Positions 45,761 to 63,822 of a DNA stretch of 64,000 nucleotides are shown piece by piece. The stretch's first letter is position 1. Every line of letters starts with the position of its first letter. The notes beneath the pieces were generated by a model that saw nothing but the letters and a program-made list of their open reading frames with translations, had not been told where the DNA came from and did not search any database. The DNA is from Eubacterium sp. (GTDB lineage Bacteria > Bacillota > Clostridia > Oscillospirales > Acutalibacteraceae), in contig JAFSRX010000007.1 of the NCBI GenBank assembly GCA_017445905.1, positions 51,551 to 115,550 on the forward strand. The letters are read 5' to 3'. The translations under genes were made by a program, and so were the position numbers.

Positions 45761-48700
45761 TTAAAATGATTGATGGGAAACATCGGTGTAGATTGTTTTG
45801 ATTTCGCCCGATGGGGTCTGATAAATCAGGTAGCCTCTGTAAGCAACATTACCGCTTAGCGAACTTATTGCAATTGTAAACTGATTTGCTCCCGATTTCT
45901 TTGTTGACTTAGCTCTGATAACTGTGTATGCATCGTTTGAAACAATGTTGTCAATAGTCAGATTGTCTTCATCAAGAGTTGAACTCTTTTCTTTTCCTAT
46001 CAGAAGACCGTATTCAAGAACATTACTGTTTTCTTCAATAACAGTCTGGCCGTTGAATATAGCTTTCGTTTTGCCTGAGGACTGAGTGATAATTGCATCG
46101 CTCTGCTTAACGTTTATTGCAGGAAGTGAGAAATTGAAGCTATCCCATTCTTCCTTTGTAACAGCCTGCAGGGTTGTTGTTTCGGCTGCAAAAAGATTTA
46201 GTTCATTTCCGAGGAAATAAGGTCTGTAGTTAATATTCTTTCCGTCTTTTATCAGCTCAACAAAGCCGTAGGCATTTTCGTCGCTGACGCTGATTTTTGT
46301 GTTATAAATAACAGTGTCGGAATAAACTGTATCGCCGTTTGTATTCTTTATTGTAACGGCGCAGTCCTTTGTTTCATCGGGAATATATTTTGCTTTGATT
46401 GTTGTATCCTTTGTTATTTCAATTTCGCCCTCAACCTTTGTGTTGCCGATATAGTAGCCATCAAAGGTATAACAGGGAATTGCCTGCGGAGCAGGAAGAG
46501 TAAAGGAGGACTCAACGTAATCAACAAGCTGAACACCTTTTCGTGTTTGCTCAGAACCGTAGTCACGAAGAATAAGAACTTCGTGATTATTGTCTGTTTT
46601 AGAAACGGCATAAATTTTAACGTTTCCAAAAACCTGGGTTGAATATTTTTCTCCAAAGCCCTGATATTGCTTTGTTCTTGCAGTTGTGCTTGAAGTATAT
46701 TCCATATACCATGCTGTTAACTCGTTTTTGGAAGTGAAAACAGCATTGCTGTTATATGTTGCTTTAAAGATTTGTGAATTTGCAGTCGGAGTGTTTCTTC
46801 CTGTTCCGTTGAATCCGATTTCAGCCTCTCCCTGAGCAAGCTCAACTGTGTACATCCTTATATGCTCATTCAGCGAGCTAAGGAGATAATCCGAAACTGA
46901 ATCAACAGTTTCCTGTTCAAGTCCGTTCTCATCAATGGTTTTAACGGTTATTTTTTCACCGTTGCTGCCTGTGAAATAAACATTGTCGCCGACGAGTGCA
47001 AATGAAAGAGTTTCAAGAATTGTTTCAAGCTCGTTTTCTTCAAAATCATATGCGTCCAGGTCCATATTTTCAGCGGTTTCAACCAATGACTGATATGCAG
47101 TTAAATCAACATCTGTTTCAGGTGCACTCAATGCTGCATACGCTGTTTCAACCTCAAGAGCAAGAGAATTAATTTCAGATTGTGCATTGGCTGCATGATA
47201 ATTGCTCTTTTCTTCTGCGCTTAGCTCGGCAAGTCTTTTTGCGTGGCGCATTGCTGTTTGAAGATTGATAATTGAAGAATTTGTATATACGGGCATCTTG
47301 CCGTCGAGGGAAGAAAGAAGTCTCTGAGCTCCTGTGTATGCAAGGTCGAGTCTTGCAAAGTCCGAGGTCGGAACAAGTCTGCTAATAGCAAGATTTATTG
47401 CGTCTCTTTCAGCGTATATTTCGCTCTGGCGGTTATCGTAGTAATCACCGTGTGAAATGCCGTTTAAAGGCTCAAATTCAAGAGAATTTATAACGCTTTC
47501 AAGTGCGCCGAGAGAGTTGGTTGTGTATTCCTGAGAGCCTGTATTTATGTATTCAAGCGCTGCTGAATATGCCTCGTCATATGAATCAAAGTCCATAAGC
47601 TCATATCCAGGATCCGGAACTTTGAGAATTGCGTTTGCTGCAGTATATCCATCAAGAGAAAAACTGAGCTCGCTTGATGAATGAGTTTTGGTTGTTGTAA
47701 CGCCTTTAATATTTGTTGAAACAGTTTGCCAACCCTGAATATCCTTTGTTCCTGTATAATTAACCTTGATTGAAGAGAGCTTATCGAGTGAATTTGTGTT
47801 TGAGGTTATAACGCCGTCAACGGTTGATTCATATTCTCCGTAGCAGCTGTTTTCAGGCATATAGAGAATGCCCTTATGTTCTTTATATCCTTCAAGATAA
47901 GTTATATTTCCTGAACGAACAGTTGGTATATTGCTGTCAAAATTATTATAAAGCTCAGCAGTATTCTGAACGGAGGCGCTTTCAGTGTTTGCAATATCGC
48001 CGTCGCTTAAAACTCTCCTATAGAAAGAAGCGTTATCAAGATAGCTTTCAGCCGTTCCTGCCATATCGGGATAAATGCTGTATGAAGCGCCGTAGTAAAG
48101 ATTGATATTATTGCTTGAAAGGAATGAGAAAATTCCGTTATTTCCGCTTATGCCGTTTCTATATCCCGATGCGGCAATACTGTTTAAATCATATGTTTTT
48201 CTGAGTTCTCCGTTAACGAAGTATTTAAGAATATGTGAGGAAGATATCGTTATATCAATATCAACCCATTTTGTTCCTATTGTATTAACCTCAGAAGAGC
48301 TGTTTAAATCGAAATAGCAGTTATTATTGCCTGAATAAGCAGTTCCGTTAGCACCGTCGTTAAATAGAATAGTGCCGTCTGCCATAATTATGAAATATCT
48401 GTTTTGATTATTTATTCCGCTTGAGAAATTCAAAACAGCTCCGTTCCAGCCCTTGTTCTGGTTGCAGTACTGGCTGAAACTGATTGTAACTCCGTTTGAA
48501 AGGTCTTTTCCTGCAAACGGGTTTGAGCTTTCCTTTGCGGTATTTCCCGCCTTCGGATAAAGGGCATATTTGCCTATATATTCAATGTTGTTATTATCGG
48601 CATATGTATATGAATACCAATCCCAGTCACCGTACATTTTCAGCTTTGAATCGCCTTGAAATGCTCTTTCTCCGAAATATGATACCTCTCTTCTTGTGTA

Positions 48701-50173
48701 GAACTTTTCAAGAGATGTACACATTTTAAATGCTTCAACGCCGATATCGGTTAGGTTTTTGTTTCTCAGATCAATCTCTTTGAGAGAGGAGCAGTATTCA
48801 AATGCGTTATGACCGATGGAAGTTACACTGTTCGGAATTGAAACACTTTTAATGTTTCCGAAATTTCCGAATGCGTAGTCGCCGATGGTTGTTATTCCGT
48901 CACCGATAACAACGTTTTCAATAATATCTGTATTATATTGTCCGCTGTAAAGTGCGTTTGCAGGCTGGTCGCCCCAAGGAGCATTCTCGCCGAAATAGTT
49001 AGGACCGACAGAGCTTGAATAAGCGAAGTTTCCCATAGCACCGTTACCGGTTAGGGTCAGGGTTTTTGTTTTTCTGTTTATTGTGTAGTTAACATTGCCG
49101 TCTGTACCCTGAACAATATTTGAAACCGCTTCATTGTTCTTGAAAAACAGTCGGCACATTTCCTCGTTAACGGCATCCATTAGATAAATGCCTGCTGGTT
49201 TTCTGTAATTAAAGCTAAGATTTTTGAGCTTAGGATTAATCTCGCCCGCATGAGCAATAGGATTAGGTACTGTTTCGCCGAGTGTTGTTGATGAAAAGCT
49301 GATATACCATTTTCCTTTTTCGTGGGGAAGATTCAGCATTTCCTGAGTTGCGTCAACCTTGTTGTTAACCGACCATTCATAGTGGTCCTGAATATAGCCG
49401 TTGTTCCAGTAGTTTGATTTGTAGCAGGGGGATTCGTATGAGCCTTTTCCGCCCTGGTCAGGCCAGTCGATATATACTCCGCCGTCCTGTGCTCCGCCGT
49501 TATATCTGTTGAATAATACGCATTTTCCGCGTACTTCATCAAGGGTCGGGTTGCCGCTTCCAAGATACCAGTAATCCTGATAGTTATAACCTGAACCGTA
49601 GAATTTATATCCGTCTCTTGAACGGTTACCGTGGATGTAATCATAAACAGCACTTGTTATATCGGTGTTGCCCTTATCTCTTTTCATACATATCAAAACG
49701 GTTTCACTCGGATGAGAGTCAAGAAAGGAATAAACCTTTTTAAGCAAAACATCAAGATAGTATTTCTGGTCACTGTCGAAAACGCTTTTTCCCTCAGCTC
49801 TGATTGTTGCGTCACCGTGGGTTAAAAAGGCGTCTCCGTCGCTGCTTGCTTCAAGACGAACATCAAGAAAACGAACTCCGTCTTCAAGCTGTCTTGAAAT
49901 ACCGTTGTTCTGAGTTTTTGAAGCTATTGACGCTGCCTGATAATATGATTCAAACTGCATTGCGGCGCTGTCATGAGAGCCTGGAATGGTTATTTCCGTC
50001 AGCCTTGTTTCGCCCCTTATTGCGCTCATCCAGTCAGCAGAGGAAACATCGTTAAGAAGTGTTTGAGTTTCATACTGTGAAGCTGCCTTAACGGTTGTGG
50101 GAATATTAAACGGAACGCATAGCCCGAATATCATCACTGCGCTTAAAAATATCGAAATAATTCTCTTCTTCAT
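45761..50173 (-). CDS. Giant secreted protein: PI-PLC X domain, LRR, LamG-like and repeat modules
   Basis: The 1470 residues begin with a signal peptide (1-31, ending VKAA). A phosphatidylinositol-specific phospholipase C X domain (about 45-350) has both catalytic His (His67 in IPGSHDS, His119 in FLTHGD) and the FLDVR pair (Asp104, Arg106), so it should be active. LRR_5/BspA repeats follow (about 400-560; IPNSVTSIGHNAF), then a concanavalin/LamG-like region (about 570-740), helical FIVAR-like segments (about 900-1130) and a C-terminal Listeria-Bacteroides-type repeat (YIGNTKVEGEIEITKDTTI). No LPxTG sorting signal is seen. It is predicted to act outside the cell on PI or GPI-type lipids. AAGGAC precedes the start. 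Confidence 0.85.
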   Translation of the reverse strand: MKKRIISIFLSAVMIFGLCVPFNIPTTVKAASQYETQTLLNDVSSADWMSAIRGETRLTEITIPGSHDSAAMQFESYYQAASIASKTQNNGISRQLEDGVRFLDVRLEASSDGDAFLTHGDATIRAEGKSVFDSDQKYYLDVLLKKVYSFLDSHPSETVLICMKRDKGNTDITSAVYDYIHGNRSRDGYKFYGSGYNYQDYWYLGSGNPTLDEVRGKCVLFNRYNGGAQDGGVYIDWPDQGGKGSYESPCYKSNYWNNGYIQDHYEWSVNNKVDATQEMLNLPHEKGKWYISFSSTTLGETVPNPIAHAGEINPKLKNLSFNYRKPAGIYLMDAVNEEMCRLFFKNNEAVSNIVQGTDGNVNYTINRKTKTLTLTGNGAMGNFAYSSSVGPNYFGENAPWGDQPANALYSGQYNTDIIENVVIGDGITTIGDYAFGNFGNIKSVSIPNSVTSIGHNAFEYCSSLKEIDLRNKNLTDIGVEAFKMCTSLEKFYTRREVSYFGERAFQGDSKLKMYGDWDWYSYTYADNNNIEYIGKYALYPKAGNTAKESSNPFAGKDLSNGVTISFSQYCNQNKGWNGAVLNFSSGINNQNRYFIIMADGTILFNDGANGTAYSGNNNCYFDLNSSSEVNTIGTKWVDIDITISSSHILKYFVNGELRKTYDLNSIAASGYRNGISGNNGIFSFLSSNNINLYYGASYSIYPDMAGTAESYLDNASFYRRVLSDGDIANTESASVQNTAELYNNFDSNIPTVRSGNITYLEGYKEHKGILYMPENSCYGEYESTVDGVITSNTNSLDKLSSIKVNYTGTKDIQGWQTVSTNIKGVTTTKTHSSSELSFSLDGYTAANAILKVPDPGYELMDFDSYDEAYSAALEYINTGSQEYTTNSLGALESVINSLEFEPLNGISHGDYYDNRQSEIYAERDAINLAISRLVPTSDFARLDLAYTGAQRLLSSLDGKMPVYTNSSIINLQTAMRHAKRLAELSAEEKSNYHAANAQSEINSLALEVETAYAALSAPETDVDLTAYQSLVETAENMDLDAYDFEENELETILETLSFALVGDNVYFTGSNGEKITVKTIDENGLEQETVDSVSDYLLSSLNEHIRMYTVELAQGEAEIGFNGTGRNTPTANSQIFKATYNSNAVFTSKNELTAWYMEYTSSTTARTKQYQGFGEKYSTQVFGNVKIYAVSKTDNNHEVLILRDYGSEQTRKGVQLVDYVESSFTLPAPQAIPCYTFDGYYIGNTKVEGEIEITKDTTIKAKYIPDETKDCAVTIKNTNGDTVYSDTVIYNTKISVSDENAYGFVELIKDGKNINYRPYFLGNELNLFAAETTTLQAVTKEEWDSFNFSLPAINVKQSDAIITQSSGKTKAIFNGQTVIEENSNVLEYGLLIGKEKSSTLDEDNLTIDNIVSNDAYTVIRAKSTKKSGANQFTIAISSLSGNVAYRGYLIYQTPSGEIKTIYTDVSHQSF

Positions 50174-50367: not shown

Positions 50368-50391
50368 AAAATTATTATGGAGGTGTTTATC

Positions 50392-53391
50392 TTGAAAAGA
50401 TTGTTCAGCGTTATACTGAGTGCAGTTTTGATTTTGCAGTTTGCAGCGTTTAATGCTTATGCTGAAGAAAGCAAAACGCCTGTTTTGAGTTATAGTTTTG
50501 AAAGCCGTGAAAATGCTCCGTCGCTTTTCGGAAACGCAAGTCTTGTTTTTGATGAGGATAAGCGGGGAAATGTTTTATCGCTTGATGGAAGCAATGGAAC
50601 ATATGCCGAAATTCCTCAGGGCTTTTTTGATGGCAGAGATGTTATGACAATTCAGTTTGATATACTTCCAAAACAGCAGTGGGGAAATTATTTCACTTTC
50701 ACCTTTGGAAAAAACAATGAGGCTTATTCATTTTTCAGAATAAGGGATAACGAAATAAGAAATGCCATAACAAAGTATTCCTGGCAGAATGAACACGAAG
50801 TCAGGAGCGAAGGCGTCAGCTATAACAACTGGATGAATATCGCCGTTGTTTTTGATAATACAATGATGAAGCTCTATGTCAACGGAGCTAAGGTGAGCGA
50901 AAACAGCAATACCGAAATCAAGGTTTCCGATTTGGGCGAAAATCTTTATTCCTATTTCGGAAAATCGCTCTATGACGGCGACGGCTGGTATAACGGATAT
51001 TTTGATAATTTTGAGGTTTATGATACAGTGCTCAGCGACAGTGAAATAAAAAATACATCTGATAAAAATCTTCCCGAAATGCCCGATTTGAGATACACCT
51101 TTGAGGATGGAACAACTCTTCCGAGTATGTTCGGCAATGCACAAACCGAGTGGGATGATGAGAAAAAGAGCACGGTGTTAACTCTTGACGGAAGCAGCGG
51201 AACGTATGCCGAAATTCCTCAGGGATATTTCGATAATAAGGATGAAATGACCGTTCTTTTTGATGTTAAATCACAGCAAAACGGAGGAAATTATTTCACC
51301 TTTGCTTTCGGACAGGACACGACTAATTATGACTTTTTCAGAATTCGCGGCTCGGAAATCAGAAATGCGATAACCGTTAATTCGTATTACAGCGAACACG
51401 AGGTTAAAACAACTGCCGATTTTACAGACAGCTGGATGAGTATTGCGCTTGTTTTTGATAACGGAAAATGCTCGCTGTATGTTAACGGAAGTCTTAAAGC
51501 AACTAACAATGATTTTCTGAATATATCTGATTTAGGCAATAATCTGCTTGCTTATTTCGGAAAATCTTTCTATGACGGCGATGCTTATTTCAAAGGCAAA
51601 TTTGATAATTTTGAGGTATATAACAAAGTGCTTAGCAATGATGAAATAAAGTATAAAGCGATGACCCACCTTCCGCTTCTTATCGGAGTTAATGTCGGAA
51701 ATGTTGTAAGCAATCTTGACGGCGTTTCAGGAACTGACAGCCACACAATAGTAAGCACTTCAATCAACAGGGAAAGCGGCGTTATAACCCCGATTATTCA
51801 AAGACGCCAGAATCCGAAAGCCTGCCCGATAAAATTCAGTTTTCTGAATAGCGAATGCAAGCTTTTAATTGACGGCAAAGAGTATCCCGAAAACTGCTAT
51901 ATTGATGCTTCGTATGACAGAAGTGTTAAAATAGTATGCAATGATACGACTGAGGAATACACCTTAAAAGCGGCAACGATTGCAAACAACCCTGTTCTTC
52001 CGGGTATGTATGCAGACCCAGATATTGATGTTTTAGACGGAAAATTCTGGATATACCCGACAACCGACGGTGTTCCGGGCTGGGGAGGAACTCAGTTCCA
52101 TGCTTTTTCATCAAAGGATATGCTGCACTGGACTGATGAGGGAGTTATTCTTGATAACCAGGATAAAAATCCGGGATTAAATGATAAGGGCGTTCAGATT
52201 GCGTCTTCAAAATGGTCAAACGGAAATGCCTGGGCGCCTTCAATCGAGGGCAAAAACGGAAAATACTATTTCTATTACTGCGGAAGAATACTCAGCGAAT
52301 ATGAAGCTCTTTACGGAGAGGGAATGGCAATCGGCGTTGCATATGCTTCTTCTCCCGCAGGTCCATATATCGCAAGTGACGAGCCGATACTCTATCCCAA
52401 AATGATGAGCGATGCAAATATCGGATTCTATGGTCAGGTTATCGACCCAGCAATCTATACTGAGGGAAGCACCTCGTATATTCTTTTCGGAAACGGTATG
52501 GCAGCAATGGCTGAGCTAAACTCCGATATGCTGAGCGTTAAAACCTCTACTTTAAGAATTATCAACAATCTTGAAGGCTTCAGAGAGAGCGTTGCCGTTT
52601 TTAAGAGAAAGAATGTTTATTACTGGCATTGGTCCTGTGATGATACGGGAAGTGAAAACTATCATATAAGATATGCCACCTCTTCAAGCCTTACAGGTGA
52701 AATAACAAACCAGGGCGTTCTTCTTGAAAAAGATGTTGACAGCGGAATCCTTGCAACGGGACATCAGAGTGTTATCTATCTTCCGGATAGTGATAAATGC
52801 TTTATTGCGTACCATAGATTTTATACCCCTCTTTCTATCGGAGGAAATACAGGTCACCACAGAGAAACCTGCATTGATGAGGTGAAATTCAACGATAGGC
52901 TTCTCAGCACTAATCTGCTTAAAAAGGTGACTCCGACTATGGAAGGCGTTGGAGCGAGGGATATAAACGGAAACAGCATAAATGAAAATACTGTTTATGC
53001 AAGCTGTACTGCTGATGGAAGTGTTTCGTCTTTTACTCCCGAAGAAGCGCCTGAAATAAAATCAATCGGTCATCAGTATGTTAAAACAACTGTTTTACCA
53101 AGTTGTACTGAGCAGGGATATGATGAATATTTCTGCACTGTATGCGGAGATACATTTAAAGAAAACTATACTCCCGCAACAGGTCATAATATTGAGTATT
53201 CCGAAAAAGAGAATTCTTCAAAATTAATGATCAGCTGCGAAAAGTGTGATTACAGGAAAGAATTTGATTTTTCAGATTATATCAATCTCAGAGAAGAAAA
53301 CATTAATTTCGATGAAAACATTGATGTAACGGGTGACGGAATAATCAACGCAAAGGATTATGGAAAAATACTTAAAACTATTGATAAATAA
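50392..53391 (+). CDS. Secreted LamG-LamG-GH43 glycosidase with dockerin-like tail
   Basis: About 999 residues from a TTG at 50392 with GGAGGTG seven bases upstream; the ATG at 50377 overlaps that site. A signal peptide ends near NAYA. Two tandem LamG/concanavalin-like repeats follow (about 30-220 and 230-425), each with the DGSxGTYAEIPQG and DLGxNLxxYFGKS motifs. A short linker precedes a GH43-type five-blade propeller (about 530-850; GMYADPDIDV base, GNAWAPSIEG, DPAIYTEGSTSYILFG, FRESVAVFKRKN acid). A Cys-containing repeat and a single dockerin-like loop DVTGDGIINAKD end the protein. It probably cleaves arabinose or xylose side chains of plant glycans; the exact substrate is unknown. Confidence 0.87.
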   Translation: MKRLFSVILSAVLILQFAAFNAYAEESKTPVLSYSFESRENAPSLFGNASLVFDEDKRGNVLSLDGSNGTYAEIPQGFFDGRDVMTIQFDILPKQQWGNYFTFTFGKNNEAYSFFRIRDNEIRNAITKYSWQNEHEVRSEGVSYNNWMNIAVVFDNTMMKLYVNGAKVSENSNTEIKVSDLGENLYSYFGKSLYDGDGWYNGYFDNFEVYDTVLSDSEIKNTSDKNLPEMPDLRYTFEDGTTLPSMFGNAQTEWDDEKKSTVLTLDGSSGTYAEIPQGYFDNKDEMTVLFDVKSQQNGGNYFTFAFGQDTTNYDFFRIRGSEIRNAITVNSYYSEHEVKTTADFTDSWMSIALVFDNGKCSLYVNGSLKATNNDFLNISDLGNNLLAYFGKSFYDGDAYFKGKFDNFEVYNKVLSNDEIKYKAMTHLPLLIGVNVGNVVSNLDGVSGTDSHTIVSTSINRESGVITPIIQRRQNPKACPIKFSFLNSECKLLIDGKEYPENCYIDASYDRSVKIVCNDTTEEYTLKAATIANNPVLPGMYADPDIDVLDGKFWIYPTTDGVPGWGGTQFHAFSSKDMLHWTDEGVILDNQDKNPGLNDKGVQIASSKWSNGNAWAPSIEGKNGKYYFYYCGRILSEYEALYGEGMAIGVAYASSPAGPYIASDEPILYPKMMSDANIGFYGQVIDPAIYTEGSTSYILFGNGMAAMAELNSDMLSVKTSTLRIINNLEGFRESVAVFKRKNVYYWHWSCDDTGSENYHIRYATSSSLTGEITNQGVLLEKDVDSGILATGHQSVIYLPDSDKCFIAYHRFYTPLSIGGNTGHHRETCIDEVKFNDRLLSTNLLKKVTPTMEGVGARDINGNSINENTVYASCTADGSVSSFTPEEAPEIKSIGHQYVKTTVLPSCTEQGYDEYFCTVCGDTFKENYTPATGHNIEYSEKENSSKLMISCEKCDYRKEFDFSDYINLREENINFDENIDVTGDGIINAKDYGKILKTIDK

Positions 53392-54194: not shown

Positions 54195-54491
54195 ATGGAA
54201 ATATCAAAGGTTAAAGAAAACGATAAACTTACTGTTGCAGTTTCAGGTAGAGTTGATACAGTAACATCACGTGAATTTGACAGCTTTATTGAAGAGAATA
54301 TTCAGGGGATAAATGAGCTTGTTCTCGATTTAAAGGATATGAGCTATACTTCTTCCGCAGGACTTCGTGTTATTCTTAAAACTCATAAAGCTATGAGCTC
54401 AAAGGGTGGGTTGAAGATTATAAATGTTCAGAGCGATGTTATGGAAATTTTTGATATAACTGGATTCTCGGATATTCTTGATATCGAATAA
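54195..54491 (+). CDS. STAS-domain protein (anti-sigma-factor-antagonist type), copy 1
   Basis: The 98 residues form one STAS domain like SpoIIAA/RsbV: VSGRVDTVTS, LVLDLKDMSYTSSAGLRVIL with the phosphorylatable Ser53/Ser54, and a C-terminal MEIFDITGFSDIL. Such proteins bind a GHKL kinase when unphosphorylated. About 75 of 98 residues are identical to copy 2 at 60673. It is followed by a VanX-type gene. The likely kinase is the C-terminal domain of the PP2C protein at 60982. Confidence 0.92.
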   Translation: MEISKVKENDKLTVAVSGRVDTVTSREFDSFIEENIQGINELVLDLKDMSYTSSAGLRVILKTHKAMSSKGGLKIINVQSDVMEIFDITGFSDILDIE

Positions 54492-54528
54492 ATCTTTCGT
54501 GTAAAACAGATTTATTCAGGAGGAAAAA

Positions 54529-55182
54529 ATGGATTTCGAAAAAGCAGCGATAAATGATGCGTCGGATTTTGTACTTCTTTCGGATTATGTTCCGTCAATA
54601 GTTCAGGAAATCCGATATTATTCAACATATAATTTTATCGGTGACAGAATTGACGGATATGAGCAGCCCTGTGCTATTATAACCAAGGAGGCTGCAAGAG
54701 CTTTAAAAGCGGTTGCAAATGAGATGAATGTCAAGGGCTATCGGCTCAAGGTTTTCGATGCCTACCGTCCTGCAACGGCGGTTAAGCATTTTGTTATGTG
54801 GGGAATAGAGGACCTTGACCAGAGAATGAAGCCGTTTTTCTATCCCGACCTTAATAAAACGGAACTTTTTGAACTCGGATATGTTGCAAGCAAGTCGAGT
54901 CATTCAAGAGGAAGTACTGTTGATTTAACGCTGCTTGATATGGAAACAGGAAAAGAAGTTGATATGGGAAGTCCGTTTGATTATTTCAGCGAAAAATCCC
55001 ATCCCGATTATAAGGGCGTAACCGAGGAACAGTTCGAAAACAGAATGATGCTTCAAAAGGTTATGGTAAAACACGGTTTCGATCCAATCGATTGCGAGTG
55101 GTGGCATTTCACCTTGAAAAATGAACCTTTCCCATCAACATATTTTGAATTCCCTGTAACTTCTGAAATTTTAAAAAGATAG
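54529..55182 (+). CDS. D-Ala-D-Ala dipeptidase (VanX/DdpX family, M15D)
   Basis: The 217 residues have the complete zinc and catalytic set: Arg80 in FDAYR, His125 and Asp132 in SSHSRGSTVDL, Glu190 and His193 in CEWWHFT. Spacing matches Enterococcus VanX exactly with a +9 offset. It hydrolyses D-alanyl-D-alanine. There are no vanH, vanA or vanRS genes nearby, so recycling of wall dipeptides is more likely than glycopeptide resistance. AGGAGG precedes the start. The gene may be co-transcribed with the STAS gene 37 bp upstream. Its terminator is split by an inserted element. Confidence 0.93.
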   Translation: MDFEKAAINDASDFVLLSDYVPSIVQEIRYYSTYNFIGDRIDGYEQPCAIITKEAARALKAVANEMNVKGYRLKVFDAYRPATAVKHFVMWGIEDLDQRMKPFFYPDLNKTELFELGYVASKSSHSRGSTVDLTLLDMETGKEVDMGSPFDYFSEKSHPDYKGVTEEQFENRMMLQKVMVKHGFDPIDCEWWHFTLKNEPFPSTYFEFPVTSEILKR

Positions 55183-55184
55183 AT

Positions 55185-55499
55185 AAAAAAGCTACTTCAA
55201 AAAAGGCGAGGTGCGATAACGAAGGTTAGTCCAAAAATCGCATCTTTTCCGCCATAACTACATTAAAATGTCCATTAGGGCGTCAGCCCAAACGGACATT
55301 TGTGCTTTGTTCTGACAAAAAATCTGATGATTTTAGGATGCAAAGCAGTTTTGACAAAGTAATTTTATTTCATAAATGTATTACAAAATTCCCTGCATAC
55401 GCGAGTATGCAGAGAATTTTTAATGCTTTTAGGGACAAAAGGACAAAGTCAAAACCTATCCTTCGTTACCGCACTTCGCCTAAATGAAGCAGCTTTTTT
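55185..55499. terminator. Terminator hairpin interrupted by an inserted element
   Basis: AAAAAAGCTACTTCA (55185-55199) and TGAAGCAGCTTTTTT (55485-55499) are complementary with one mismatch and T-rich on both strands. Together they look like a bidirectional terminator between vanX and the convergent carboxypeptidase gene. The arms are now 285 bp apart, with the element at 55204-55481 in the loop. Confidence 0.65.
55204..55481. mobile_element. 278-bp MITE-like element, complete copy
   Basis: The ends are 27-bp imperfect inverted repeats (left 55204-55230, right 55455-55481; 23 of 27 positions match, starting AGGCG). There is no transposase gene. Internal hairpins include AAATGTCC/GGACATTT with an inner GGGC-GTCA-GCCC (about 55265-55302) and CTGCATAC-GCGA-GTATGCAG (about 55393-55412). 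The first 141 bp (55202-55342) recur at 63860-64000 with one difference. A short A-rich target duplication is possible but not certain. Confidence 0.8.
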
Positions 55500-56857
55500 G
55501 CTTTTGATTATTTCTTTTTTTCTCAAAGCTATAATAATTATTAAGAATCCAATTATTATCAATATGGATATAACTATGTAAATACCATATGACATTTTTT
55601 CTATATTATCCCTTGAAATGATATTTGTTGAATAATTAAGTCCGTCAATTTTATATGTTGCAGTTCCAAGAACCTGATTCTGTTTTATCGGCGCTTTAAT
55701 GCTTTCTTCAATCGTTATTTCCGGTTTAATATTTTCAAATTCAGAGCTGTTCGGAGAAATGCTGTTGATATCTGTCTGGATATAGTAGTTAATTGATTTG
55801 ATATTATCGGTAGCGCCTTTAACTTCAATTTGACCGAGCGGTTCGGATTTATCTGCAATTTTTTTATATGAATATTTGTTATAAACATATTCGAAAAGCC
55901 TTTTGGAATCCGAAAATCTTTCGTTTATTCCGTTACTTTTAATCTGTCCATGTAAAACAACGCAGATAAGATTAAGACCGTCTTTTGAACTGCTTGAAAC
56001 AAGGCATTCTCCGGCAGGCGTTGTGTGGCCTGTTTTAATTCCTGTGCAGGAGGGGAAATAATAATTTGCAGAAGTCGGAATTATCAGTTCGTTTGTATTC
56101 TGATATGTTCTGTCGTTCTTTTTGTAAATCTTTGACGGCGGAACTGAAAAACTTGATGTTTTAACTATTTCATTGAAAGTTTCGTATTTCTGACATTCCC
56201 TTGCGATAAGGTATAAATCATATGCGCAACAATAGTGGTTATTATCGTGAACACCGTTGGGGTTAACAAAATGGAGCTTTTTGCATCCGAGTTCCTTTGC
56301 CCTTTTGTTGCAAAGCTTGGCGAATGCCTCGGCGCTGCCGCTTACGTGCTCAGCCAAAGCATATGCCGCTTCGTTTGCGCTCGGTATAAGAAGTGCCTGG
56401 AGCATTGTATAAACGCTCTGTTCTTCGCCAACCTGAAGATTGGCGTTTGAATATCCGGGAAGAATCTCATCAACAGCGCTTTTTGAAATTTTAACCATTT
56501 CATCCATCTTGCAGTTTTCAAGAACAACAAGAGCGGTGAGAATCTTTGTTGTACTTGCAGGATATCTTTTCTGAAGTGCATTTTTCTCGTAGAAAACCTT
56601 ACCGCTGACAGGGTCGGCTATATAAGCCGCTTCGCATCCGATTTCGGGAATATTTCCTTGCTTTTTCTACTCTTTTTTCTGTATTCAAATGTCACCTTCG
56701 CTTCATCTGCTGTTTCATTTAATTCGTAAAGTGAATCTGAATATTCGATTTTAGGAGAGTGAAATTTTTCATTCGGCTTTTCTCCCTGTGCAAATGAAGT
56801 GACAGGGGAGAGCATTAAACATATTGCTAAAACACTTATAAGAATCTTTCTTTTCAT
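55449..56857 (-). pseudogene. Frameshifted D-Ala-D-Ala carboxypeptidase (DacF-like, S11)
   Basis: Two minus-strand frames together make one penicillin-binding carboxypeptidase. The first (56857-56618) has the signal peptide (SPVTSFAQG) and then changes frame. The second resumes from an in-frame TAG at 56667-56669: IADPVSGKVFYEKNA, then the catalytic SxxK as YPASTTKIL, SxN as PSANEAA and KTG as GIKTGHTTP, ending in a C-terminal amphipathic/membrane anchor. The shift lies in A-rich sequence about 56650-56680, suggesting a one-base indel or sequencing error. The ATG at 56507 lies after the active-site serine, so an isolated product from there would be inactive. The last ten codons come from the inserted element. 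Confidence 0.85.
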
Positions 56858-56915
56858 ACATACCTCTAATTAACAATAAATAGTTTTTTAACTGCGGAAT
56901 TCAATCCCGAAACGG

Positions 56916-57680
56916 TTATTTATTGAATTCAAAGAAATTCATTTTACTGAAGCCTGTCGGAAGTGGTATTGTACACATATAAATAACAGCAAAAACTAAG
57001 ACGACCACTGATATTCCGAGGACGGCTAAGCGATTCGGCATATTCTTGAACGTTCCGACTATACCGAGAAGAAAGAGCGTTAGCGAAAACATAACGGTTA
57101 CAAGTTGATAGGAGTCGCCCTTGGTGTTATCCCTCTTTCCTTCTTCGAGCAGTTCACGGGATAAATCAACCTTTTTCTGCGCTGACCCAAAATACTTTTC
57201 GGTCATTTCAGGCATATTAAAAGGGTTGTCCTCATTATTTTCTTCCATCCATTCTAAGCCCTCGGCAAGCGTTTGGCTAACATTTTGCTTTTTGAATTTT
57301 TCAATTTTTTCATTGATAAGTTTTATTTTTGTCTGGTTTCCGTCAGCTTTTGCAGCTTCAAGCTCACCGTAATACTCGCTTATAACATTCCATGTCGTAT
57401 AATCGGAAAGATAGAGCTGCAAGCCCAGGTTGTATTCTGCGCTTCCCTCAGATGCCATATTGTTACTTTTTGTAAAGTTAATTGACTGGATACCGCTGTG
57501 AAGAGTGCCTATCCATGCTGCCCACGCCGACAAAAGCGTTGTAATTCCAAGCAGAATTGCAACAACTGTTTCAAGCTTTTTGGCTGATATTAAAGCGTTT
57601 CTGCTTTTGAGTGCGCCGTCAGGAGTATTGCTGCTTTTTGCGTTTTTACGTTTTAACGATTCATAATCTTTTTTAGACAT
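56916..57680 (-). CDS. Membrane protein of unknown function
   Basis: The 254 residues have a basic N-terminus, one membrane helix at about 35-55, a helical middle with alternating charge (about 110-180; EYYGELEAAKADGNQTKIKL), and two further hydrophobic segments near the C-terminus (about 193-240). I do not recognise a family with certainty; it is similar in layout to DUF4337-type proteins. The start at 57680 is preferred because the promoter at 57749-57777 puts the transcript start near 57742; a TTG at 57737 would be almost leaderless. Confidence 0.6.
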   Translation of the reverse strand: MSKKDYESLKRKNAKSSNTPDGALKSRNALISAKKLETVVAILLGITTLLSAWAAWIGTLHSGIQSINFTKSNNMASEGSAEYNLGLQLYLSDYTTWNVISEYYGELEAAKADGNQTKIKLINEKIEKFKKQNVSQTLAEGLEWMEENNEDNPFNMPEMTEKYFGSAQKKVDLSRELLEEGKRDNTKGDSYQLVTVMFSLTLFLLGIVGTFKNMPNRLAVLGISVVVLVFAVIYMCTIPLPTGFSKMNFFEFNK

Positions 57681-57748
57681 ATTTTTGATTCCGTCCTGTA
57701 ACACTCCTTGCGGAGTAATAATTCTATTTTTTACCAATATGCTGAATT

Positions 57749-57777
57749 ATTATATCATATTTTCTGAAACAGGTAAA
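57749..57777 (-). promoter_or_regulatory. Promoter of the unknown membrane protein gene
   Basis: On the minus strand: TTTACC, 17 nt, TATAAT (57754-57749). Confidence 0.55.
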
Positions 57778-57843
57778 GATTTTAATACATTGAATTAATT
57801 CTTGTTTTTTCAAAGGTATTATTCGTATGATTTGTTTCGTTCT

Positions 57844-57872
57844 TCTTGCAATAATAATTATTATTTGATATA
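57844..57872 (+). promoter_or_regulatory. Promoter of the STAS-kinase/transporter/PP2C operon
   Basis: TTGCAA (57844-57849), 17 nt, TATAAT (57867-57872), 54 bp before the first gene. The next five genes are tightly spaced (3-13 bp), with no terminator between them. Confidence 0.65.
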
Positions 57873-57926
57873 ATAATTCTAATTTGGTAAAGCAAATCAT
57901 TATTTAGAGAAAGGTAATGAAATAAT

Positions 57927-59066
57927 ATGACAATTAAATTAAGCGGAAGAATAGATTCTTCAAATGCACAACAAACTGAAACCTGGCTAAACGAGCAAGT
58001 GGGTGATTATAGAGGCGAAATCATTTTAGATGCTTCGGAACTTGAATATATTTCAAGTGCAGGGCTCAGAGTAGTTCTTCGTCTTAAAAAAGTTAACAAA
58101 GATACAAAGATTATCAACTGTAACAGCGAGGTTTATGAAATATTCGATATGACGGGATTTACCGAAATGATGGATATTTCCAAGGCTTACAGAAAGTTAT
58201 CAATCGACGGATGTGAGGTTATCGGCGAAGGTGCAAACGGTATTGTTTACCGAACTGACCCCGATACGATTGTTAAGGTCTATAAAAACCCTGATTCACT
58301 TGATGAAATCCATAACGAAAGAGAGCTTGCGAGAAAAGCATTTGTTATGGGAATTCCTACTGCAATTCCATACGATGTTGTTCAGGTTGGAGATTTATAT
58401 GGCTCTGTTTTTGAACTTCTTGATGCAAAATCATTTGCAAAACTTATTCGTGAAGGCGTAAGCGTTGAAGAGCTTGTTAAGCAGAGCGTTGATATTCTTA
58501 AAACAATGCATTCAACATTTCTCAAAGACGGTGAACTTCCTAGCAAAAAGGCGGAAGGCGTTAAATGGGCAAAATTTGATAAAGATTATCTTCCTGAAGA
58601 AATCGGCTCAAAGCTCGTTAAACTCTTCGAAGAAATTCCTGAAACAAATAATATTGTTCACGGCGATTATCATATTAAAAATATTATGCAGCAAAACGGA
58701 GAAAATCTGCTTATTGATATGGATACTCTTTCAATGGGACATCCTGTTTTTGAGCTTGCAGCAATATATGCCGCATATGTTGGATTTTCGTGTGTTGATA
58801 AAGAAAACGGCGCAAAATTCTTTGACATAAAGAGAGAACAGTGTAACGATATCTGGAAATATACTGTTAAGTATTATTTCGATGATAAAGATGATGAGTT
58901 TATTGAAAACGCATGTAAAATGATTGAAACAATCTGTTATGCAAGACTTCTCAGATGGAAGATTCGCCGCGGTGATGATTTAACAGAGGAACAAAAGCAG
59001 GAAAAAGCCTTCTGCGAAAACTATCTTATTGAAAATGTTCCGAAAATTGATAAACTCTATTTTTAA
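57927..59066 (+). CDS. STAS domain fused to an APH/protein-kinase-like phosphotransferase
   Basis: The 379 residues have two parts. Residues 1-95 are a STAS domain with IILDASELEYISSAGLRVVL (Ser43/Ser44) and the FDMTGFTEMMDI ending. Residues about 100-379 are a kinase-fold domain: glycine loop VIGEGANGIVYRT, Lys in IVKVYKNP, catalytic loop VHGDYHIKNIM, metal-binding IDMDTLSMGHP, as in aminoglycoside phosphotransferases and fructosamine-type kinases. The substrate may be a small molecule or a partner protein. The fusion suggests that the kinase domain is controlled by, or acts on, the partner-switching components encoded beside it. Confidence 0.85.
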   Translation: MTIKLSGRIDSSNAQQTETWLNEQVGDYRGEIILDASELEYISSAGLRVVLRLKKVNKDTKIINCNSEVYEIFDMTGFTEMMDISKAYRKLSIDGCEVIGEGANGIVYRTDPDTIVKVYKNPDSLDEIHNERELARKAFVMGIPTAIPYDVVQVGDLYGSVFELLDAKSFAKLIREGVSVEELVKQSVDILKTMHSTFLKDGELPSKKAEGVKWAKFDKDYLPEEIGSKLVKLFEEIPETNNIVHGDYHIKNIMQQNGENLLIDMDTLSMGHPVFELAAIYAAYVGFSCVDKENGAKFFDIKREQCNDIWKYTVKYYFDDKDDEFIENACKMIETICYARLLRWKIRRGDDLTEEQKQEKAFCENYLIENVPKIDKLYF

Positions 59067-59069
59067 ACA

Positions 59070-60668
59070 ATGAAGCTTAAATCAGAAAAAGAAACCTACA
59101 GACTTACTCCCGCATCAGTGGATACAGTAAGTGAAAAAACCGAAAAATTTCTTAAAGAACTTAAAGCTCAGAATAAGAACATAATCGAAACGAGGCTCAG
59201 CGTAGAAGAACTGCTCATCGGATTTATGAATGAGTTCGGCGAAGAAAAGGAATTTACATACGTTGAGAGTGATTTCCTCGGAAAACCTTATATTTCAATA
59301 AACGTTGAGGGAAAACCTTTTAATCCGCTCGAAAAAGAGGAAAGCGATGATTTCGGTAACTGGTCGAGCGCATTAATTCAAAATGCGGATTATACCCCTT
59401 CATATTATTTCGACAAGGGAATTAATACCGTAACAATAAGATTTTCAAAAAAACAGGCAAATCCTATTGTTAAACTTGCGCTTGCAATAGTTCTTGCATT
59501 TTTAGTATCTCTTTTAAAATTTGTTGTTCCCGCTCAGACTATTGAATTTATCAGAGAAAATATACTTGAATCATTTTATAATGCGTTTCTCGGACTTATG
59601 ACAACGATTGAAATACCACTTGTGTTTCTGTCGGTAGCCTGTGGAATAATCGGAATTGGCGACAGTGCTGTGTTCGGAAGAATAGGCAGAAAAATGATTA
59701 TGCGCTTTGTTACGGTTATTCTGTTTTTTACCTCTCTGGCGGGTGTAATATTCTCAATGCTGTTTACAACGTTTTCTAATGATAACAACTCGGGAATATC
59801 AGTCAAGGTCGGGCTCGATATGCTGCTTGATATCATTCCGAAAAACCTTGTTGACCCTGTTGCAAACGGAAATACAATGCAGATTGTTGTTATGGCGATA
59901 ATTATCAGTGTTTCTGTTGTTGTTCTTAAAGAAAAAGCAAGAACTATTTCAAAAGTAATCAATGAGGGTAACAGAATAATTGTTTATATAACTGAATTGA
60001 TTTCAAAACTCCTTCCGGTATTCATATTTATTATTTTGCTTAATATGATATGGAGCAAAAACATTCATCTCTTTGTTGATATGTGGAAGCCGATAGTTGC
60101 ATTTATCGGAGTTCTTGTATTGCTTTTTGCTTTAATGATTGCAACTGTTTCAGCCAAAGAAAAGGTAAAAGTAACAACTCTTATGAAGAAAATGCTTCAA
60201 ACCTTTTTAATCGGCTTTGGAACAGCCTCATCGGTTGCTGCAAACGGCGAATGCTCTGAGAGTCTTTATAGAACAATGGGCGTAAACAAACGCTTTGTTG
60301 AATTCGGACAGCCAACGGGCGGGGTAATCTTTATGCCGTCAACAGCAATAAACTTTATTGTATGCGCAATATATATGGCGTCGTATTATAAAATTAAAGT
60401 TTCGATTCTATGGTTTATTATTGCAATAATAGTCTGCTCCTTTGTTGCAATTGCAACTCCGCCTGTGCCTGGCGGTGCTATTGCAGCATATACGGTAATT
60501 TTCTCTCAGCTCGGTATTCCGAATGAGGCAGTTGCGATTGTTGTTGCACTTGATATACTTTTTGATTTCATTTCAACTGCGTTTGATGGCTCCTTCCTCC
60601 AGCTTGAGCTGATAAGACAGGCAGATGAAAACAAAATGCTAAACTATGATGTTTTAAGAAAGGAATAA
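59070..60668 (+). CDS. GHKL-like N-terminal domain fused to a dicarboxylate/amino acid:cation symporter
   Basis: The 532 residues have an N-terminal soluble part (1-125) with ETRLSVEELLIGFMNEFG, resembling the N-box of anti-sigma/histidine-kinase ATPases, followed by GKPYISINVEGKPFNPL and KGINTVTIRF where the G-boxes would be; key glycines appear degenerate. Residues about 130-532 form a DAACS (GltP/DctA) symporter with eight or more membrane segments, the GTASSVAANGECSES hairpin and the PTGGVIFMPSTAINF and DILFDFISTAFDG helices. The start lies 3 bp after the kinase stop, with no good ribosome-binding site, so translation is probably coupled. Confidence 0.82.
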   Translation: MKLKSEKETYRLTPASVDTVSEKTEKFLKELKAQNKNIIETRLSVEELLIGFMNEFGEEKEFTYVESDFLGKPYISINVEGKPFNPLEKEESDDFGNWSSALIQNADYTPSYYFDKGINTVTIRFSKKQANPIVKLALAIVLAFLVSLLKFVVPAQTIEFIRENILESFYNAFLGLMTTIEIPLVFLSVACGIIGIGDSAVFGRIGRKMIMRFVTVILFFTSLAGVIFSMLFTTFSNDNNSGISVKVGLDMLLDIIPKNLVDPVANGNTMQIVVMAIIISVSVVVLKEKARTISKVINEGNRIIVYITELISKLLPVFIFIILLNMIWSKNIHLFVDMWKPIVAFIGVLVLLFALMIATVSAKEKVKVTTLMKKMLQTFLIGFGTASSVAANGECSESLYRTMGVNKRFVEFGQPTGGVIFMPSTAINFIVCAIYMASYYKIKVSILWFIIAIIVCSFVAIATPPVPGGAIAAYTVIFSQLGIPNEAVAIVVALDILFDFISTAFDGSFLQLELIRQADENKMLNYDVLRKE

Positions 60669-60672
60669 AACT

Positions 60673-60969
60673 ATGGAACTTTCAAAGGTTAAAGAAAACG
60701 AAAAAATGACTGTTGCAATATCCGGAAGAGTTGATACTGTAACAGCTCCCGAGCTTGAAAACTATATTTTTGAAAATGTTGAGGGTATAAAGGAACTTGT
60801 TCTTGACTTAAAGGATATGAGTTATACATCTTCTGCAGGACTTCGTGTTATCCTTAAAGCTCATAAAACAATGAGTTCAAAAGGCTCAATGAAAATTATA
60901 AATGTTCAGAGCGATGTTATGGATATTTTTGAAATAACAGGGTTCTCAGATATTCTGAATTTCGTATAA
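60673..60969 (+). CDS. STAS-domain protein (anti-sigma-factor-antagonist type), copy 2
   Basis: The 98 residues match copy 1 at 54195 in about 75 positions, including the whole LVLDLKDMSYTSSAGLRVIL segment. It lies 4 bp after the transporter gene and 12 bp before the PP2C gene, so it should be the direct substrate of the phosphatase and GHKL domains there. Confidence 0.93.
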   Translation: MELSKVKENEKMTVAISGRVDTVTAPELENYIFENVEGIKELVLDLKDMSYTSSAGLRVILKAHKTMSSKGSMKIINVQSDVMDIFEITGFSDILNFV

Positions 60970-60981
60970 CGGTGAATAAGA

Positions 60982-63006
60982 ATGAAAAAATCTGTGCTTA
61001 AACGCTCGAATTTAGCGTTTAATATTATCGGCGGTGTTATATTGCTCTTGTTGATGTTCAGCATAATCGTCAGCTTTATCGGTGTTGCAAGTTTAACAAA
61101 GTCTTATAAAAATGCATATAAAAATTCAACCCGCAATATCGCTGAAACTGCAACCCTGCTTGTCAACGGAGATAATATTGATCTTTATCTTGAAAACAAC
61201 GGAAACTCCGAAGAATACCAACAGAGCAAAACACGTCTTGATAAATACTGCGAAAAGATTAAGGTTTCTCTTGTTTATGTTATCAAGGTTGATACAAGTG
61301 ATTACGGACGTTTTACCTCGGTATTTAATTCTGTTGGAAAAGATACTCCTTATACTCCGTGGGAAATAGGCTATCAGCAGGATACAACCAACGATGAATA
61401 CAAAAAACTGTACAAACAGATTTACGAAGAGAATCTGGAATACGGAACTGTTTTCAGAACAAAGGATTTAAGAGGCGCACCGCCCCATATAACAACTCTG
61501 GTGCCTGTTAAAAACTCAAGTGGCGATGTTGTTAGTATTATGTGTATCCAGAGACCTATGGGAGAGCTAAAAGAAGCAATGCGCCCTTATCTTACAAATA
61601 TCGCAATTTCAACGGCTTTTCTGATGACGATGGTATCTCTGACAACGGCGTATTTTATCAGAAGAAGATTTGTTACTCCGCTAAGACACATAACCGAAGA
61701 AACAACCCGTTTTGCAAAGGAAAACAAGAAGGGCGAGTCACTACAGGGCATCAGCAAAATAAATGAAATAAAAACTCTCGGAAATGCTATTGATATGATG
61801 GAATCCGAGATGCTCAGCTATATTGATAATCTTACGGCAGTTACTTCTGAAAAAGAAAGAATCGGCGCAGAGCTTTCAATCGCAAGTGCAATTCAGGAAA
61901 ATTCTGTTCCTCATATCTTTCCGCCGTATCCGCACAGGGATGATATTGATATCTTTGCAAGTATGACTCCCGCAAAGGAAGTCGGAGGGGATTTTTATAA
62001 TTTCTTCCTTATCGACGATGACCATATTGCGCTTGTTATGGCTGATGTTTCGGGAAAAGGTGTTCCTGCAGCACTGTTTATGATGGTAACAAATATTTTA
62101 ATCAGGGAAAGTGCGCGCGTTATAAAAACGCCGAGCGGAATTTTAACATATGTTAATAACCGAATTTGCGAGCGTAATGCAGCGGATATGTTTGTAACGG
62201 TTTGGATCGGAATTCTTGAAATATCAACAGGAAAAATGATTGCCTCCAACGCAGGCCACGATGACCCGGCTGTTTACCGTAAAAACGGCGAATTTGAGTT
62301 TGTTAAAAGTAGGCACGGTTTAGTTGTCGGCGCAATGAGCGAATCAAGGTACAGTGACTTTGAAATTCAACTCGGCAAGGGCGATAAGATTTTTCTTTAT
62401 ACAGACGGCGTACCCGAGGCAACTGATAAAGATAATAAAATGTTTAGCCTTGAAAGAATGCTTGAATCTCTTAACAGTCACAGGGATGAAAAGCCTGAGG
62501 GAATTCTTGACGGAATAAATGATGATGTAAATAAATTTGTTGGCGAAGCTCCTCAGTTTGATGATTTAACAATGCTTTGTCTTCAACTGAAAGAAGAAAA
62601 TGATATGAAAACTTTAACGGTAGATGCAACAACAGAAAATCTTCACGAGGTAATGGATTTTATTGATTCTTTTCTCGAAGAAAACGACTGTTCTATGAAA
62701 GCGCAGACGCAGATAGATTTATCTGTTGAAGAAATTTATGTTAATATTGCGAATTACGCATACGGAGACAGTGTAGGTAAAGCTGAAATCAGTATTTCAA
62801 AGGCTGATGATGAGGTTATGATTGTTTTCAAAGACGGCGGTGTTGAGTATAATCCGCTTGCGAAAAAAGATCCCGATGTAACGCTCTCAGCTGAGGAAAG
62901 AAATATCGGCGGTCTCGGAATTTATCTTGTTAAAAAGAATATGGACAGCGTTTCATATGTCTATGAAAACAATCAAAACATTTTAACTCTGAAAAAAGCA
63001 ATCTGA
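60982..63006 (+). CDS. Membrane sensor with PP2C (SpoIIE/RsbU) phosphatase and C-terminal GHKL kinase
   Basis: The 674 residues contain, in order: membrane helix (about 13-36), extracellular sensor domain (about 37-205, cache-like), second helix (about 207-228), HAMP (about 229-282), PP2C/SpoIIE phosphatase (about 310-535; AKEVGGDFYNF, MADVSGKGVPAALFM, FLYTDGVPEATD, FDDLTMLCL) and GHKL ATPase (about 545-674; LSVEEIYVNIANYAYG N-box, FKDGGVEYNPL, GGLGIYLVKK G-box). Thus phosphatase and kinase for a STAS substrate are in one chain, with an external input. No sigma factor is adjacent. Confidence 0.9.
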   Translation: MKKSVLKRSNLAFNIIGGVILLLLMFSIIVSFIGVASLTKSYKNAYKNSTRNIAETATLLVNGDNIDLYLENNGNSEEYQQSKTRLDKYCEKIKVSLVYVIKVDTSDYGRFTSVFNSVGKDTPYTPWEIGYQQDTTNDEYKKLYKQIYEENLEYGTVFRTKDLRGAPPHITTLVPVKNSSGDVVSIMCIQRPMGELKEAMRPYLTNIAISTAFLMTMVSLTTAYFIRRRFVTPLRHITEETTRFAKENKKGESLQGISKINEIKTLGNAIDMMESEMLSYIDNLTAVTSEKERIGAELSIASAIQENSVPHIFPPYPHRDDIDIFASMTPAKEVGGDFYNFFLIDDDHIALVMADVSGKGVPAALFMMVTNILIRESARVIKTPSGILTYVNNRICERNAADMFVTVWIGILEISTGKMIASNAGHDDPAVYRKNGEFEFVKSRHGLVVGAMSESRYSDFEIQLGKGDKIFLYTDGVPEATDKDNKMFSLERMLESLNSHRDEKPEGILDGINDDVNKFVGEAPQFDDLTMLCLQLKEENDMKTLTVDATTENLHEVMDFIDSFLEENDCSMKAQTQIDLSVEEIYVNIANYAYGDSVGKAEISISKADDEVMIVFKDGGVEYNPLAKKDPDVTLSAEERNIGGLGIYLVKKNMDSVSYVYENNQNILTLKKAI

Positions 63007-63012
63007 AGCAAA

Positions 63013-63822
63013 ATGAGTTTTACTGTTAATAAACTTGATTTGAAAGACTTTGAAATGCAGTATGTCAGGTTCGGAAGAGGTGAAAAAACTCTTGTTATTC
63101 TTCCGGGACTCAGTATTCAAAGTGTTGTTTTTGCAGCAGCTTTAATTGAAAAGCAGTATGAAATATTTAGCAGGGAATTTACAGTTTATCTTTTTGACAG
63201 AAGAGATAATCTTCCGGAAAGTTACTGCGTTTATGATATGGCTGAGGATACGGCGAAGGCTATGAAAGAGCTTGGACTGGATAAAACCTGTCTTTTTGGA
63301 ACATCGCAGGGCGCTATGATGGCGCTTGTTATTGCCGCAAATCATAGCGAGCTTGTAAGCAGGCTTGTTATTGGCTCAGCAATTTGTAAAGCTGATGACA
63401 GCATTGACATTATTGAAGAATGGATTGAGTTTGCTCAAAAAGGAAAAACAGAGGAACTATGTCTTTCCTTCGGAGAAAATGTTTATCCAAAAGACTTCTT
63501 TTCTCAAAACAGGCAAGCTTTTATATCAATGGCAAAAACTGTTACTCAAGATAATCTGAAACGCTTTTTAATCCTTGCAAAAGGCACCCGCCACTTTGAT
63601 GCAAGCGAGTGCTTAAATAAGATTCAGTGTCCTGTTTTATTTATTAGCGATACCGACGATAAGGTTTTTGGTAATAATGCAGGCAGTGATATATTTAAGA
63701 AATTAAAAAACAATGAAAGCGCTCAGCTTTATATGTATTCAGGTTACGGGCATGCAGTTTATGATATGGCGCCTGATTATACTTATAGACTTTATGATTT
63801 TTTTACCGAAAACATCAATTAG
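63013..63822 (+). CDS. Alpha/beta hydrolase
   Basis: The 269 residues have the alpha/beta-hydrolase fold: VILPGLS oxyanion loop, nucleophile elbow GTSQG (Ser in LFGTSQGAMMAL), acid in FISDTDDKVFG and His in YSGYGHAVYD. No signal peptide is present. It starts 6 bp after the PP2C gene and is the last gene of the operon. The substrate is unknown. Confidence 0.85.
   Translation: MSFTVNKLDLKDFEMQYVRFGRGEKTLVILPGLSIQSVVFAAALIEKQYEIFSREFTVYLFDRRDNLPESYCVYDMAEDTAKAMKELGLDKTCLFGTSQGAMMALVIAANHSELVSRLVIGSAICKADDSIDIIEEWIEFAQKGKTEELCLSFGENVYPKDFFSQNRQAFISMAKTVTQDNLKRFLILAKGTRHFDASECLNKIQCPVLFISDTDDKVFGNNAGSDIFKKLKNNESAQLYMYSGYGHAVYDMAPDYTYRLYDFFTENIN

Follow-up and report, generated by a model that had tools for sequence, protein, structure and literature searches.

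Our analysis of a 64,000-nucleotide stretch of a Eubacterium sp. genome (G000:C57:51551-115550, hereafter the window; the genome comprises 2.27 Mb in 75 contigs) revealed a compact plus-strand operon at 57927-63822, in which STAS, GHKL and PP2C signalling domains lie together with an SLC1-like membrane protein. Partner switching between such domains is a classic form of sigma-factor control. Comparison with related loci tips the balance toward the view that the operon encodes a sigma-free partner-switching module whose output is the transporter-like membrane protein itself.

The operon consists of five genes separated by 3, 4, 12 and 6 bases, which bears out the tight spacing described in a first-pass annotation of the window, and the coordinates given there matched the open reading frames. 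That annotation, however, had let the locus start at 54195, and this boundary was not upheld: STAS1 and the adjacent VanX-like gene form a unit of their own upstream of the operon, with two minus-strand genes in between. The contig ends 178 bases past the hydrolase gene, and the operon may therefore run on further. The features are as follows.

54195..54491, plus strand: STAS1, a SpoIIAA/RsbV-like protein of 98 amino acids (aa) with an SSAGL site; Pfam STAS above cut-off; 77% identity to STAS2
54529..55182, plus strand: VanX/M15-type D-Ala-D-Ala dipeptidase-like gene, 37 bases downstream of STAS1; Pfam above cut-off
57927..59066, plus strand: STAS-APH, first gene of the operon, encoding an APH-type kinase preceded by a STAS domain at about residues 1-88; Pfam
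59070..59459, plus strand: degenerate GHKL domain at the N terminus of the SDF protein, the proposed STAS docking site; profile-profile comparison
59460..60668, plus strand: SLC1/SDF membrane domain (Pfam SDF, residues 134-504 of the protein encoded at 59070-60668)
60673..60969, plus strand: STAS2, a 98-aa switch protein; Pfam STAS
60982..63006, plus strand: PP2C-GHKL protein with a Pfam SpoIIE (PP2C) domain at residues 345-536 and an intact GHKL domain (HATPase_c_2) at 549-672
63013..63822, plus strand: alpha/beta hydrolase, the final gene ahead of the contig end; Pfam

Pfam searches and profile comparison together agreed with the domains listed in the first-pass annotation (two STAS proteins, a STAS-kinase, a GHKL-like/SDF fusion, a PP2C-GHKL protein and a hydrolase). 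The STAS profile PF01740 has four matches in this genome, three within the window and one beside SpoIIAB-like and sigma F-like genes. The GC content of the locus lies inside the range of the whole window. Promoter-like sites precede 54195 and 57927, and their total across the region (38) was about equal to that in shuffled sequence (35.3).

The proteins carry the residues expected of signalling partners. The conserved candidate phosphorylation motif with its serine, SSAGL or ASAGL, was present in every one of the 10 STAS sequences aligned, among them all three from the window. The kinase motif of the window's STAS-APH protein (HGDYHIKN...IDMD) is intact, and all 17 STAS-APH proteins combined the SSAGL site with the HGD...N kinase motif. 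Because STAS-APH genes accompany fusions of the SDF, MATE and ABC types, we infer that a signalling kinase fits these proteins better than a substrate-specific kinase. The PP2C-GHKL protein has a hydrophobic segment at residues 8-26 and, as judged by eye, a second one near 205-225, and its N-terminal region gave no Pfam match. Its PP2C domain matched SpoIIE with 163 bits and retains GGDF, ADVSGKG, YTDG and FDDLT, which we take to be the catalytic motifs, while the attached GHKL domain keeps six of six ATP-site residues.

Degenerate GHKL domains on transporters

On the SDF protein, Pfam reported only the SDF domain and not the GHKL-like N-terminal domain. A profile of 11 SDF N termini nevertheless aligned with the PP2C-attached GHKL domains at 96.4% (E value of 1.2e-9 over 110 columns; hhalign), with MATE-attached GHKL domains at 97.1% and with ABC-attached GHKL domains at 98.1%, against 0.2% for a STAS profile used as the negative control. 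A search of solved structures with the SDF N-terminal profile returned no GHKL relative, and the same search with the MATE-GHKL profile yielded weak matches only, with RsbW and SpoIIAB (E values of 0.018-0.32) among unrelated ones. Several of the domain profiles used in this work were built on one or a few sequences.

To compare the ATP sites, we scored six positions mapped via the SpoIIAB of the same genome (E, N, D, G, G and G, namely the N-box Glu, an Asn, the G1 Asp and Gly, and two G2 Gly residues). All six were present in 23 of 23 PP2C-GHKL proteins, in 6 of 6 STAS-APH-GHKL proteins and in 16 of 19 standalone domains, the remainder including fragments. The transporter-borne domains stood in sharp contrast, since none of the 33 kept all six (0/16 attached to SDF, 0/11 to MATE and 0/6 to ABC proteins). 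Among the SDF-attached domains (n = 16), the Glu was kept in 14, the Asn in 2, the G1 Asp in none, the G1 Gly in 14, and the first and second G2 Gly in none and 3, respectively. The ABC-attached domains (n = 6) kept the Glu in 5, the Asn in 1, the Asp in none, the G1 Gly in 6 and neither G2 Gly; those on MATE proteins (n = 11) kept the Glu in 11, the Asn and the Asp in 9 each, the G1 Gly in 2, the first G2 Gly in none and the second in 11.

A kinase role for the transporter's own GHKL domain was thus judged unlikely on account of its degenerate ATP site, less firmly so for the MATE-attached domains. In SpoIIAB, the N-box Glu probably lies opposite the serine of STAS, and a degenerate ATP site with a mostly kept Glu fits the pattern of a putative STAS docking site. 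Because the candidate kinases are intact, the transporter copies degenerate and the Glu mostly retained, these data strengthen the earlier suggestion that the transporter-borne domain would serve as a docking site and not as a kinase.

A standalone RsbW-like GHKL gene elsewhere in this genome (G000:C24:14759-15097; L059:5688-6113) sits amid hydrogenase-type genes, its neighbors being a thioredoxin-like ferredoxin gene, a DRTGG-like gene (below the cut-off) and an iron-hydrogenase gene.

Conservation of the module

Five loci (L005-L009) harbor relatives with 61-72% identity. STAS-APH lies immediately upstream of GHKL-SDF in the window, L006, L007, L009 and L008, where the APH part is cut by the contig end. 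In L005, the two genes share a strand but are separated by a gene for a 137-aa protein, a hydrolase and a VanX-like sequence, and the PP2C gene is cut by the contig end. L007 and L009 preserve the order STAS-APH, GHKL-SDF, STAS, PP2C-GHKL. Past GHKL-SDF, L006 showed no STAS or PP2C gene within the stretch examined, and L008 contained STAS and hydrolase genes but no PP2C gene within its stretch; an alpha/beta hydrolase like that of the window is present in L005 and L008. At 30% identity, the distant genome G262 (L043) carries STAS, PP2C-GHKL, GHKL-SDF and SBP-BPD-ABC-GHKL genes on one strand with gaps of -8, 35 and 42 bases, the last gene encoding an amino-acid-type ABC transporter with a degenerate C-terminal GHKL domain. 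Gene order is therefore conserved among close relatives and in part only in the distant locus, and the lack of conservation that the first-pass annotation had named as a refuting outcome did not occur.

No sigma factor forms part of the module at the loci examined. The window locus contains neither a sigma factor nor a separate anti-sigma factor, and a sigma profile was negative at all 64 STAS-module loci but positive at 19 of 20 lower-scoring SpoIIAA-like control loci, although this profile was built from the single sigma F of the same genome and a distant type could be missed. The 64 loci represent the best 60 distinct places by rank plus the window, L043, L062 and L064, which were known beforehand; in one of the ranked 60 (L099), the STAS frame is broken. 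Among the 91 loci first collected, the only sigma match was a SigK-like gene in L006, on the opposite strand and 120 bases from STAS-APH, that is, in one of the six close loci. The absence of a nearby sigma factor claimed in the first-pass annotation thus stood, and the outcome that would have spoken against it, a sigma factor in a conserved neighboring operon, did not occur. With this one-sequence profile, sigma-factor control at the locus was rejected.

The 64 STAS loci included PP2C genes at 37 and STAS-APH genes at 13. Transporter-GHKL fusions lay near 9 of the 60 ranked loci (8 MATE and 1 ABC) and near 12 of the 64 overall. L043, L063-L068 and L104 harbor MATE-GHKL fusions, ABC-ATPase-GHKL fusions and a single GHKL-ABC exporter, and MATE-GHKL also occurs at many more loci. 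The 29 MATE-GHKL places were judged by score and frame length; 11 of them are the rows of the profile itself and 18 were newly fetched, of which a MATE profile confirmed all but one (17/18, the exception being L189). At L063 (5137-7227), a degenerate GHKL domain forms the N terminus of the ABC exporter, and the 13-kb stretch yielded no STAS or PP2C gene. L064:1834-8701 encodes a STAS-APH-GHKL protein, a HAD hydrolase, a MATE-GHKL protein and a 616-aa protein of which one part is PnrA-like, with STAS and PP2C at its two ends, and is apparently another putative transporter switch with an unusual binding-protein fusion.

We further compared the distribution of fused transporters with that of module-type STAS (E value of at most 1e-19), in counts and P values that ignore kinship. 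Across 391 Clostridia, module STAS was present in 10 of 10 GHKL-SDF genomes against a background of 58/391 (P = 2.5e-9; 9/9 and P = 1.7e-8 when the window's own genome was left out), but in only 4 of 80 genomes with plain SDF proteins alone. Within the family (200 genomes), the corresponding figures were 7/7 and 55/200 (P = 9e-5; 6/6 and P = 3e-4 without the own genome). The GHKL-SDF search scored at most three candidate stretches per genome, so that a genome counted as plain may conceal a fused SDF; a domain-profile search scoring up to ten stretches per genome found no further one. Genomes with MATE-GHKL likewise had module STAS in 20 of 23 cases (P = 1.4e-15), one of the 23 (G275) being unconfirmed as MATE. 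The two other listed genomes of the window's genus, G410 and G533, had neither an SDF match nor module-type STAS, which suggests that the system is an accessory element acquired or shed in the course of the genus's evolution.

Several neighboring genes deserve mention. VanX-like sequences adjoin STAS or GHKL-SDF genes both in the window (54529-55182) and in L005 (4326-5041, spread over two reading frames and immediately upstream of GHKL-SDF), a hint that the signal or substrate could be D-Ala or cell-wall peptides. Between the two STAS units of the window, the minus strand (56919-57737) encodes a 273-aa protein with three hydrophobic segments, whose weak sub-cut-off NCBIfam match to the lpg1689 family (E value of 1.9e-4) we did not regard as meaningful. 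Farther upstream, 45761-50173 and 50377-53391 each encode a large protein that is probably secreted; as judged by eye, one begins like a phospholipase C and contains repeats, and the other resembles a glycoside hydrolase and ends in a dockerin-like tail. Beside the cluster in L007 (6221-6712) lies a gene for a protein of the PNPOx fold, whose resemblance to Nim nitroimidazole reductases falls below the cut-off.

The SLC1-like membrane domain

The SDF domain of the window protein covers positions 3-371 of the 387 in the PF00375 profile, representing a nearly full SLC1/SDF fold, and its sequence matches solved SLC1 homologues. In GltPh numbering, FMP stands in place of NMD, and R397, N401 and D405 are replaced by Ser, Asp and Leu, respectively. 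All 20 plain SDF proteins keep the equivalents of GltPh N310, M311, D312, D394, R397, T398, N401 and D405. Among the 23 fused ones, D312 and D405 are missing from 20 each, R397 from 22, N310 from 17, N401 from 10, and D394 and T398 from 6 each. The loss of R397 separates fused from plain proteins (22/23 versus 0/20; P = 2.2e-11), L179 being its sole keeper; N310, D312 and D405 are retained in L048, L049 and L179. In a tree of the 43 SDF domains, one branch parts fused from plain with a support of 100/99, which is compatible with a single fusion event.

With NMD, Arg397 and Asp405 replaced, the window protein departs from the Na+ signature of acidic amino acid symporters given in PMC12668577. 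It also departs from the H+-coupled SLC1 signature of that source (a change at [T/S]92, M311L and D405N), since, judged on positions 311 and 405, it keeps the Met and has Leu at 405; the source further ties R397 to acidic-substrate specificity. Because most fused SDF proteins are without the Na+ and acidic-substrate residues of the plain ones, the label of an uptake symporter, under which the first-pass annotation had listed the protein, appears doubtful.

Proposed switch and alternative readings

In the arrangement that we favor, the membrane PP2C-GHKL protein would sense a signal, its GHKL domain would phosphorylate the serine of the STAS SSAGL motif and its PP2C domain would remove the phosphate. 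Unphosphorylated STAS would then dock on the SLC1-like protein through its fused, degenerate GHKL domain, a site for which the STAS domain of STAS-APH might compete, and docking would change the activity of the transporter; MATE proteins and amino-acid ABC transporters appear to share this design. The sensing, phosphorylation and docking steps, as well as the gating and its sign, are inferred. Of the idea first put forward for this locus, that the switch directly gates uptake, comparative data speak for the docking site, the gene order and the absence of a sigma factor; the part concerning uptake is doubtful.

Several observations weigh against this proposal. The loss of ion and substrate residues may indicate that the SDF part has ceased to transport. 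The MATE-attached GHKL domains are only partly degenerate, and their loss of ATP binding is less sure. At four loci (L081, L182, L183 and L197), the linked PP2C protein occurs without a GHKL kinase domain in the fetched stretch. The co-occurrence statistics disregard kinship, and physical linkage is uneven. Only 9 of 23 GHKL-SDF loci have a STAS, STAS-APH or PP2C gene within about 8 kb, seven on the same strand (six of them from one close lineage) and two on the opposite strand (L175 and L179). The 20 plain SDF loci comprised no STAS, no GHKL and one PP2C neighbor, and the difference (9/23 versus 1/20; P = 0.011) was no longer significant after the six close loci were collapsed into one lineage (4/18 versus 1/20; P = 0.17). 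STAS or PP2C linkage was found at 17 of 29 MATE-GHKL loci and was absent from 12, and 11 of the 17 had built the profile, 8 of these 11 having come from the STAS census; of the 18 loci outside the profile, 6 were linked, compared with 1 of 20 plain SDF loci (P = 0.04).

The direction of signalling might also be reversed. The SLC1-like protein would then act as a sensor (transceptor), an SDF ligand would make the degenerate GHKL domain hold or release STAS, and the transporter would pass information on to the STAS-APH kinase and the hydrolase. The separate, well-supported branch of the fused SDF proteins and their usual lack of Na+ and acidic-substrate residues agree with this, as does the position of STAS-APH directly upstream in five of the six close loci (cut by the contig end in L008). 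However, similar domains occur on MATE proteins and at the C terminus of ABC ATPases, where gating domains like the one in MetN are known to reside, and L179 retains the Na+ and Arg397 equivalents. We regard this alternative as unlikely.

GHKL domains dimerize, and DctA is a known co-sensor for DcuS. By analogy, the degenerate domain could pair with its PP2C-attached GHKL counterpart and make the transporter a co-sensor of the phosphatase/kinase. The profile similarity of the two domains and the presence of PP2C-GHKL in the same operon in the window, L007, L009 and L043 (the PP2C gene of L005 being cut by the contig end) are in line with such pairing, but in L081, L182, L183 and L197 the fused transporter lies near a PP2C protein devoid of GHKL, with no other intact GHKL in the stretch, and we give this explanation somewhat less credence still. 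It is quite improbable that the module acts on a distant sigma factor or on the APH kinase only, with the transporter as a passenger whose N-terminal domain is otherwise used: 14 of the 23 GHKL-SDF loci lack a STAS or PP2C neighbor in the fetched stretch (some cut by contig ends), but the co-occurrence (10/10 versus 4/80), the fusion of related domains to unrelated transporters beside the module and the silent sigma profile at the 64 STAS loci all argue to the contrary.

The proposed sigma-free switch resembles the SpoIIAA/SpoIIAB/SpoIIE and RsbV/RsbW/RsbU systems of Bacillus (sigma F and sigma B) in its STAS serine site, ATP-intact GHKL kinase and PP2C domain. Unlike them, the locus lacks both a sigma factor and a free anti-sigma factor, joins the kinase-type and phosphatase domains in one membrane protein and has an additional GHKL domain, degenerate and attached to a transporter-like protein. 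The SiaABCD system of Pseudomonas aeruginosa also couples STAS-type partner switching to a non-sigma output (PMC8457831, PMC7647112), but there SiaC binds an enzyme, the diguanylate cyclase SiaD, whereas here the proposed output is a transporter-like protein with a GHKL-derived domain. SulP/SLC26 proteins (PMC8256260) similarly join the STAS signalling fold to transport; they carry STAS on the transporter, while in the present system the transporter bears a GHKL-type fold and STAS is a free protein. The window protein is not a SulP/SLC26 member, its membrane domain being SDF with no STAS attached. It shares a nearly full SDF domain with GltPh, GltTk and GltP but differs from them in the replaced NMD, Arg397 and Asp405 and in its extra N-terminal domain. 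Transporter-GHKL fusions did not appear in the titles or abstract beginnings of the open-licence literature searched.

As far as sequence comparison can tell, there is an even chance that the degenerate, anti-sigma-like GHKL domain constitutes a portable tag in Clostridia, one that places unrelated transporters (SLC1-like proteins, MATE proteins, amino-acid ABC importers and possibly an ABC exporter) under post-translational STAS control. If so, it would represent an offshoot of partner switching in which transcription is bypassed, and it would supply candidate targets for the STAS and PP2C genes of Clostridia with no adjoining sigma factor, the situation at 64 of the 64 loci examined. Should STAS proteins indeed dock on transporters, cells could adjust import or export immediately when external signals arrive, with no need for new transcription.

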